NCBI GenBank assembly: GCA_947466425.1 | Contig: CANIBZ010000001.1 | Span: 1 to 64,000 of the forward strand | Reading direction: 5' to 3' | DNA length: 64,000 nucleotides | Source: Flavobacteriales bacterium | GTDB taxonomy: Bacteria; Bacteroidota; Bacteroidia; Flavobacteriales_D; Sanyastnellaceae | Part shown: positions 46,949 through 58,810 of the stretch, piece after piece | How positions within the stretch are numbered: position 1 is the stretch's first letter | Layout: each line of letters begins with the position of its first letter | Program-made: the position numbers and the translations under genes | Notes under the pieces: generated by a model | What the model saw: only the letters and a program-made list of their open reading frames with translations | Told to the model about the DNA's origin: nothing | The model's database searches: none

Positions 46949-46992
46949 CACAACACGTTGTGATGACCTTCTGCGAAGGATGACCGCGGAGG
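46949..46992. repeat. Micro-hairpin array A (ATGA linker)
   Basis: CACAACACGTTGTG-ATGA-CCTTC[TGC]GAAGG-ATGA-CCGCGGAGG. Confidence 0.55.
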
Positions 46993-47002
46993 GGATGGGT
47001 AA

Positions 47003-47470
47003 ATGGAATTTGATATGAAGAGACACATTTTATTAGTAGGAATGCCCGGAAGTGGGAAGACGACAAAGGCGAGGCAGTTGGCTGTGGAGCGTGGGGTGTC
47101 GTGTTATGAAGTAGATGAGATGTTGGAGTTGAAGTGGGGAAGGAGTATTGCTGAATTTGTGGAGGGAAATGGTTGGGAAAAATTTCGCGAGGAAGAATTT
47201 TCTATGGTGAAATCGATTGTGAACGAGCCGGTGGGAATCATTTCAGCGGGAGCAGGTTTTTTTACTACTGATGAGAAGGTTGAATTCTCTTTGAATCATT
47301 TTGAAGTGTTGTATTTGGAAGTGTCTATTGACGAGTTGTTCAACAGACTCAGCACTCAAGAAGAACGCGCTAAGCGTCCGCTTTTGAGTGAAGGGGATTT
47401 GCGTTTTAAGTTGGAAGCGCTTTTAGCGGAAAGGGAAAGGTTTTACTCCTTCGGATCAATCACGAAGTGA
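47003..47470 (+). CDS. aroK: Shikimate kinase-like P-loop protein
   Basis: ILLVGMPGSGKTTKARQLAVERGVSCYEVDEMLELKWGRSIAEFVEGNGWEKFREEEF. Confidence 0.8.
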   Translation: MEFDMKRHILLVGMPGSGKTTKARQLAVERGVSCYEVDEMLELKWGRSIAEFVEGNGWEKFREEEFSMVKSIVNEPVGIISAGAGFFTTDEKVEFSLNHFEVLYLEVSIDELFNRLSTQEERAKRPLLSEGDLRFKLEALLAERERFYSFGSITK

Positions 47471-47521
47471 CCAATCTGACTTCGTCAGATCAATTGCTGC
47501 GCAATCAATCACAGAAGGTGA
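47447..47521. repeat. Micro-hairpin array B ((A)TCAAT linker)
   Basis: TCC[TTC]GGA, TCAC[GAA]GTGA, ATCTGAC[TTC]GTCAGAT, ATTGC[TGC]GCAAT, degenerate TCAC-agaag-GTGA. Spans the aroK 3' end and most of the convergent intergenic gap. Confidence 0.8.
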
Positions 47522-58400: not shown

Positions 58401-58653
58401 GATCGACAACAGCATCTTCGAACTGAACGCATCAATAAGCTTATACCCGAATCCGACTCGCTCTGAATTGAACATTCAAGTCAACTCTTCCATCATTGGA
58501 AACGACTTATACATCTTCGATGCGGTAGGAAAATTAGTTTACAAGCAACAGTTGCTTTCAACACAAACAACCCTTACTGTTTCCAACTTCGCAGATGGGA
58601 ATTACATTGTGAGAGTGGGAGAGGTGGTGAAGAGATTTGTGGTTGAAAAATAG
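49486..58653 (+). CDS. Giant modular T9SS surface protein: LamG-like domains, Ig-like tandem array, MopE-like metal-binding repeats, type A sorting domain
   Basis: Repeated '[48 protein letters not shown]'; eight 80-aa Ig-like repeats; '[34 protein letters not shown]' repeats; C-term '[17 protein letters not shown]...RFVVEK'. Start at ATG 49486 preferred over the TTG at 49465. Confidence 0.9.
   Translation: [3055 protein letters not shown]
55491..57410 (+). repeat. Eight exact-period 240-bp tandem repeats encoding Ig-like domains
   Basis: 'gcnctncc...' block start recurs at 55491, 55731, 55971, 56211, 56451, 56691, 56931, 57171. Confidence 0.95.
57418..58415 (+). repeat. Five MopE-like metal-binding repeats (protein level)
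   Basis: YYADxDGDGFG...[36 protein letters not shown] repeated. Confidence 0.9.
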
Positions 58654-58661
58654 ATTTTTCA

Positions 58662-58810
58662 ATCATCTTCGATGATCAATCTGACTACGTCAGATCAATT
58701 GCTACGCAATCAATCGCGTTGCGATCAATCGTTCAGAATTCACCGAAGGTTTGATCGCAAAGCGATTGATCTGAAAGATTGATTGCGGAGCAATTGATCA
58801 CCGAAGGTGA
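58662..58810. repeat. Micro-hairpin array D, head-to-head (TCAAT linkers then TTGAT linkers)
   Basis: ATCATC[TTC]GATGAT, ATCTGAC[TAC]GTCAGAT, ATTGC[TAC]GCAAT, ATCGC[GTT]GCGAT, ACC[GAA]GGT, ATCGC[AAA]GCGAT, ATCT[GAA]AGAT, ATTGC[GGA]GCAAT, TCACC[GAA]GGTGA. Confidence 0.92.

Follow-up and report, generated by a model that had tools for sequence, protein, structure and literature searches.

Four intergenic loci in a Flavobacteriales genome raise the question of what kind of element is built from chains of very short hairpins whose stems vary while their loops are drawn from one narrow class. The loci, here termed arrays A to D, lie in a 64,000 nt stretch of DNA (the window), the first part of a contig of 150 kb that belongs to a metagenome-assembled genome (MAG) of 2.59 Mb. 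An initial annotation of the window described them as tandem short inverted repeats with 3 nt loops and suggested that they act as DNA hairpins rather than as terminators or protein sites. We find that they belong to a repeat class that recurs across this whole genome and in most genomes of its genus, with a grammar, a polarity and a turnover of its own. Our leading interpretation, offered tentatively and with somewhat less than even confidence, is that the arrays are tag-plus-hairpin DNA repeats that resemble repetitive extragenic palindromes (REPs) and are moved as single-stranded DNA, with an IS200-like HUH transposase as the candidate mover.

Triloop hairpins are in excess and follow a loop rule

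All four loci were recovered at the positions first given, and a recount of distinct hairpins with 3 nt loops raised the total from 22 to 24 (one in A, four in B, ten in C and nine in D). The loop class GNA on one strand and TNC on the other, initially assigned to about 20 of them, holds for 22/24, the exceptions being GTT and AAA, both in D. A C-G closing pair, also claimed for about 20, is present in 21/24 and is missing from TAT[TTC]ATA, GTT[GAA]AAC and ATCT[GAA]AGAT (loops are given in square brackets). The statement that the loop is always 3 nt fails at array A, where a hairpin with a 2 nt loop, CACAAC[AC]GTTGTG, stands beside a single 3 nt-loop hairpin.

The comparison with shuffled sequence proposed by the initial annotation was made on 414,664 bp of genome sequence, in which palindromes with a 3 nt loop and a stem of at least 5 bp were counted against Markov-1 shuffles. 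Intergenic DNA contained 127 such palindromes against 44 in the shuffles; coding DNA showed nearly no excess (581 versus 526), and the excess at loop sizes other than 3 nt was far smaller. To avoid circularity, a second test, covering 694,680 bp from seven genomes of the genus, placed no condition on the loop and considered the segments between like spacers, the short constant sequences that separate the hairpins. Five spacer families yielded 119, 64, 56, 53 and 81 inter-spacer palindromes, compared with 0–7 in shuffles and 2–3 for control spacers, and 333 of these 373 palindromes have a 3 nt loop. The material sampled consists of genome stretches, and contigs C15, C6 and C24 and some loci were picked partly for arrays or transposases; array densities and the rate at which both members of a pair have an array are inflated by this choice.

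The inter-spacer palindromes comprise 260 distinct sequences, 194 of them with a 3 nt loop. Among random triloops, C[GNA/TNC]G would account for just a few per cent by our estimate from base composition alone. The loop class first proposed is real, and the C-GNA-G/C-TNC-G rule built on it proved too narrow: the strict C[GNA]G form covers 93 of the 194 distinct triloops, the rest being C[ANA]G (43), T[GNA]A (19) and other loops (39). The rule observed is pyrimidine-[R-N-A]-purine (R, purine), which takes in C[RNA]G and T[GNA]A; a T-A closing pair is tolerated mainly with GNA loops.

Array grammar and polarity

The arrays alternate a constant 2–5 nt spacer, of which there are about six families, with perfect hairpins whose varied stems form a limited vocabulary (up to 19 per spacer family). 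Examples are gaat-GTTGC[AAA]GCAAC-gaat, tcat-CCAC[GAA]GTGG-tcat, tct-TGC[GTA]GCA-tct, ccaat-TAC[GAA]GTA-ggaat-AAAACC[GAA]GGTTTT-ccaat and ttgATCAC[GAA]GTGATtg. In total, 116 merged arrays were found in 695 kb.

The strand that carries the purine-type loop is closely tied to the strand of the spacer, in ratios of 114:5 for TTGAT, 74:1 for CCAA, 71:1 for TCT and 37:12 for TCAT, and on this strand the spacer ends in AT in most families. Such intrinsic polarity is the trace expected from a system that reads a single strand, but it could equally persist if the arrays stem from a small number of founders. Relative to gene direction the loop strand is balanced, with 183 sense and 211 antisense loops in co-directional gaps, 133/134 in convergent gaps and 88/94 in divergent gaps (404 versus 439 overall). 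As the loop strand is independent of gene direction and tied to the spacer strand, a polar DNA-level element is favoured over an RNA one. As a lagging-strand test, loop strand was also correlated with GC skew; the result was suggestive but clumped and is given no weight here.

Neighbouring hairpins seldom share a stem in three families: 0/91 adjacent pairs do so in TTGAT arrays (8.7 permuted), 5/96 in CC/GG arrays (21.2 permuted) and 0/46 in TCAT arrays (3.2 expected). GAAT and TCT arrays show no such depletion in the permutation test. Plain unit duplication is therefore not the main growth mode where same-stem neighbours are depleted, and in the TTGAT and CC/GG families unit-by-unit tandem slippage is rejected in this role. 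Some hairpin orders are found at more than one locus (18 distinct transitions versus 22.4 permuted), so the neighbour pattern partly reflects copying of multi-hairpin blocks. Array C provides a plain case of tandem expansion: its ccaat/ggaat part consists of a 48-bp module of three hairpins (AAAACC/TAC/AAC) in six tandem copies. As most of array C is this module, its hairpins are not independent. Similar sequences occur at 53 places in the same genome. Array D, in which two half-arrays of opposite polarity meet, gives DNA folding z scores of -9.0 and -7.7 on the two strands.

Loci A–D are not isolated: the scan of the genome and its relatives proposed at the outset placed them in a genus-wide repeat class, with arrays in 8/9 genomes of the genus; of about 200 genomes from the order, hardly any others have them. 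No arrays were seen in small samples, 20 kb each, from 16 further genera within the family. Exact array DNA was also matched in freshwater Flavobacteriales assemblies. A phage origin was rejected, as two scans of viral collections gave 0 and 2 matches, the latter apparently one element carrying a lone hairpin with the spacer and no array.

Turnover of orthologous arrays

Arrays at orthologous positions differ in informative ways. TCACC[GCA]GGTGA in genome G004 corresponds to TCACC[TGC]GGTGA in G005, a loop inversion, and ATCT[TTC]AGAT corresponds in an orthologue to ATCTGAT[TTC]ATCAGAT, a matched change in both arms. Loop inversion and symmetric arm change are documented products of template switching between the arms of inverted repeats (PMC8604942), and replication template switching at the arrays is thus well supported. 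At three orthologous gaps the whole array family has been swapped, and one gap holds an array in one species and none in the other. The site of array A is occupied by different hairpin words in G001, G004 and G005 and lacks an array in G006.

These changes also lend support to an alternative without a dedicated enzyme, which we consider possible but doubtful: slippage and template switching would create, perfect and multiply the hairpins as a mutational satellite, and recombination would spread blocks of them. The loop rule would then reflect the physics of hairpin nucleation, a nascent strand folding back at R-N-A between C and G. The 48-bp expansion in array C and the recurring hairpin orders, as expected of block copying, fit this account. 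Less easily explained are the scarcity of identical neighbours in three families, the constant tags and the strong tag–loop polarity that persist despite diverse stems, the restriction to one genus, and the clustering of rule-obeying triloop hairpins at transposase genes of other genera, described below.

A Y1 HUH transposase as candidate enzyme

Y1 HUH transposase genes are present in 4/9 genomes of the genus, and their products match both the model and the structures of IS200/IS605 TnpA. These proteins carry DHVH and YIQNQKSHH or YIKNQKNHH (Y..NQ..HH), in agreement with the HUH and tyrosine motifs of TnpA_Y1 subclass 1.2, and their NCBIfam label is IS200, not REP-associated tyrosine transposase (RAYT). 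Subclass 1.2 has been described as generally lacking terminal secondary structures (Quentin et al., 2018; PMC6006769). The genus proteins share its Y---Q--HH signature and its distribution in Bacteroidetes, and differ from the described members in that the relatives considered here are flanked by triloop hairpins. At 29 Y1 loci across Bacteroidota, 46 distinct triloop hairpins with stems of at least 6 bp lie within 400 bp, 22 of which obey the loop rule; 700–1500 bp away there are 12 such hairpins, none of which obeys it. Because a rule derived from the genus was applied here to independent loci, this scoring is a real though modest test. Within the genus, the nearness of Y1 genes to arrays decides little: 5/6 lie near chains of at least two hairpins, compared with 24% of genes, and two of the loci are orthologous. 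An IS200-like TnpA close to subclass 1.2 is a candidate, as yet unproven, for the enzyme that moves the arrays.

A hairpin pair that also fits the loop rule, related to CCCCCAGC[TTT]GCTGGGGG / GCTCGC[AGA]GCGAGC, lies on both sides of the type-1 Y1 gene in L074. At L076 (G023:C123), which belongs to a different genus of the family, a Y1 gene lies amid several GACCC[TAC]GGGTC and GCTCC[GTA]GGAGC hairpins in units of about 60 bp.

In the interpretation that we favour, each unit would be a short tag (TTGAT, TCAT, CCAAT/GGAAT, GAAT or TCT) and, after it, a micro-hairpin whose triloop on the tag strand is of the pyrimidine-[R-N-A]-purine type; the unit would fold once that strand is single, for example during replication. 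Hairpins of the d(GCGAAGC) type, with C-GNA-G loops, are exceptionally stable as oligonucleotides, and in the arrays a purine–A mismatch across the loop, on a C-G pair, may stabilize very short stems. Template switching between the two arms during replication would keep them perfect, single units as well as blocks of several hairpins would travel as single-stranded DNA, and the mover, resident or past, would be a HUH transposase of the IS200-like kind that stands near TnpA_Y1 subclass 1.2. Numerous arrays would in turn provide shared sequence for recombination of accessory gene blocks. The arrays themselves, with their grammar, polarity and turnover, are demonstrated. That a Y1 enzyme moves the units as single-stranded DNA is the step of this scheme that hangs together best, but it is unproven.

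Several observations weigh against transposase-driven movement. Y1-flanking hairpins outside the genus mostly have longer stems and do not form micro-arrays. When chains of at least three hairpins are required, just 2/6 genus Y1 genes lie near one, compared with 18% of genes. Y1 genes occur in 4/9 genomes and arrays in 8/9, a discrepancy that missing MAG sequence could explain in part. GAAT arrays mix both polarities, according to the hairpin word. A clean empty site, marked by a lone tag, was not encountered. In favour of such movement, the related ISDra2 TnpA inserts at TTGAT (PMC2806898), but this match may be coincidence because the junction is partly built of stem ends.

A more far-reaching version is that the arrays represent a new class of single-stranded DNA element, in which a HUH transposase of the TnpA subclass 1.2 type reads the tag together with the chemistry of the loop (R-N-A closed by C and G, or G-N-A closed by T and A) and not the stem sequence. 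Stems would then be free to diversify, and the arrays would serve as landing pads for accessory genes across the genus. We regard this proposal as rather unlikely.

Gene blocks bounded by arrays

Table 1. Arrays and neighbouring genes in the window.
Feature	Position	Strand	Family or match	Composition and context
Array A	46949..46992	.	TCAT/atga family	Gap between phosphatase-like gene (PHO, -) and shikimate kinase (+); order CACAAC[AC]GTTGTG, atga, CCTTC[TGC]GAAGG, atga
Shikimate kinase	47003..47470	+	PF01202, E 1.4e-29	Left anchor of ancestral array; orthologues adjoin unsplit array in G004, G005
Array B	47447..47521	.	TTGAT family	TCC[TTC]GGA, TCAC[GAA]GTGA, ATCTGAC[TTC]GTCAGAT, ATTGC[TGC]GCAAT; encodes final codons and TGA stop of shikimate kinase
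DUF1016/YhcG PDDEXK nuclease gene	47533..48519	-	PF06250, E 8e-59	Between arrays B and C
Array C	48578..48969	.	ccaat/ggaat family, then GAAT/attc family	GAAT/attc-family hairpins GTC, GCC, GTTGC, GCCC
HTH_3 regulator	48970..49302	-		Inside inserted block
3062-aa secreted repeat protein	49465..58653	+		Inside inserted block
Array D	58662..58810	.	TTGAT family	Two half-arrays of opposite polarity, centre ~58726-58753
Rhodanese domain gene	58877..59152	+	PF00581	Right anchor; directly after shikimate kinase array in G004, G005

The window itself offers an example of array-associated rearrangement (Table 1). In G004 and G005 the order is shikimate kinase, one TTGAT array and the rhodanese gene. 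In the window the TTGAT array is split: B corresponds to its left part and D ends with its right part, with 11.1 kb between them that contain the DUF1016 gene, array C, the helix-turn-helix gene and the gene for the 3062-aa secreted protein. B and D share a stretch of about 43 bp. A single ancestral array, whose ends are now B and D, was split by the 11.1-kb insertion. In G001 the array at this site is followed by ORF6N, by an attgg array and by the gene for a homologous large protein, and G004 has a homologue of the 3062-aa protein at another locus, where it adjoins DUF1016 and arrays. The 3062-aa reading frame is open over 9 kb and by eye contains LamG-like, Ig-like and calcium-binding-type repeats.

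Copies of DUF1016 that are 93–94% identical to the window gene occur at other array-bounded loci in G003, G004, G005 and G008. In all, 23 genes are sandwiched between arrays, and they are typically accessory (DUF1016, ORF6N, DUF433, nucleotidyltransferase-HepT fusion, AAA_14/DUF4143 and large secreted proteins). The arrays are preferred junctions of gene exchange, most simply explained by homologous recombination between like arrays. DUF1016 was rejected as the mobilizing enzyme, as DUF1016 genes outside the genus lack flanking arrays. At one locus (G003 L153:2648-6215), two DUF1016 genes and a nucleotidyltransferase gene stand in a row with an array between each, like a chain of cassettes; its neighbours in G005 and G008 have different content.

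Such blocks could suggest a dedicated cassette system, in which the arrays serve as attC-like sites for insertion or exchange of single accessory genes, as the 11.1-kb block within an array, the repeated occurrence of DUF1016 and the sandwiched genes would imply. We judge this unlikely. No recombinase common to the arrays was identified, although no search was aimed at integrases, the array-free DUF1016 genes of other genera speak against it, and homologous recombination between like arrays accounts equally well for the B/D duplication.

Position relative to genes

The median distance from an array edge is 13 bp to a stop codon, with a quarter overlapping it or no more than 1 bp away, and 111 bp to a start codon. 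Convergent gaps are also enriched (32/95 arrays versus 59/283 gaps). Both findings would be expected if the arrays were 3′-end hairpins that stop transcription or protect mRNA and are kept at gene ends for this RNA role. This is an improbable explanation, as RNA would see one strand only whereas the loop strand is balanced in all gene contexts, 19 arrays lie in divergent gaps, T tracts are absent, and neutral tolerance also predicts a position near stops. Rho-independent terminators (GC-rich hairpin plus T run) are not in excess between 46900 and 49000 (two seen, 1.6 expected), and no Rfam family matched at gathering score between 46500 and 59500; a known RNA family or terminator is thereby rejected, and the loop-strand balance leads us to reject RNA function as the main explanation. 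Together with the spacer-tied polarity, these results support the original suggestion of DNA-level hairpins.

Comparison with known repeats

REPs, which are related to Y1 HUH transposases through RAYTs, are likewise extragenic tagged hairpins in high copy number, often clustered and mostly at gene 3′ ends. They have a conserved stem of 5–13 bp and a GTAG or CGTC tag (PMC3733652). The arrays share with them high-copy, polar extragenic hairpins, but lack the GTAG/CGTC tag and a conserved stem: their stems vary freely down to 3 bp, their tags are different, and what stays the same is the class of loop together with the spacer. The arrays therefore work like REPs rather than being REPs. The initial annotation was accordingly right that they match no recognized REP. 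A functional resemblance is indicated all the same, because triloop hairpins of this kind flank IS200-like transposase genes in the phylum.

The arrays are not clustered regularly interspaced short palindromic repeats (CRISPR) either, as had been stated: CRISPR loci have identical repeats with unique spacers, whereas here just 2–5 nt are constant and a palindrome makes up the variable part. Integron attC arrays are similar in being folded single-strand DNA sites that adjoin exchangeable genes, but the units here are 9–20 bp hairpins in chains, and neither an attC structure nor an integrase was seen, though no search was aimed at them. Quasipalindromes produced by template switching show the same arm homogenization and loop inversion; known cases are scattered single inverted repeats, whereas the arrays share a loop class. 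Synthetic d(GCGAAGC) mini-hairpins have the C-GNA-G triloop in common, with a chemistry known from oligonucleotides, and we found no natural genome-wide use of such hairpins, and no described equivalent of the arrays, in the open-access literature searched.

If the interpretation as REP-like repeats is correct, the d(C-GNA-G) stability rule would be used or exposed genome-wide by living bacteria, and 3–7 bp stems with a fixed loop class would make these the smallest tagged hairpin repeats known to us. For TnpA subclass 1.2, whose description includes no terminal structures, the arrays would be a class of substrate, and the shuffling of accessory genes in these freshwater bacteria would find an explanation. 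Orthologous arrays in addition form a natural record of replication template switching.

Other repeats in the genus and family

Some arrays contain a longer dispersed hairpin pair, in which CCCCCAGC[TTT]GCTGGGGG lies about 12 nt from GCTCGC[AGA]GCGAGC (L154:2683-3126 and L156:963-1644). In a different genus of the family, palindromes with 3 nt loops and stems of at least 5 bp number 59 against 25 expected (L104; G019:C1:1-19800); the C[RNA]G loop class is not in excess there, and this is another hairpin repeat. Polypurine/polypyrimidine tandem runs (cttaccttttcttacctctctt and its complement) occupy some of the gaps between genes in this genus (L002:2216-2350; L151 near 5150-5230), among them the site that holds a hairpin array in sister species.

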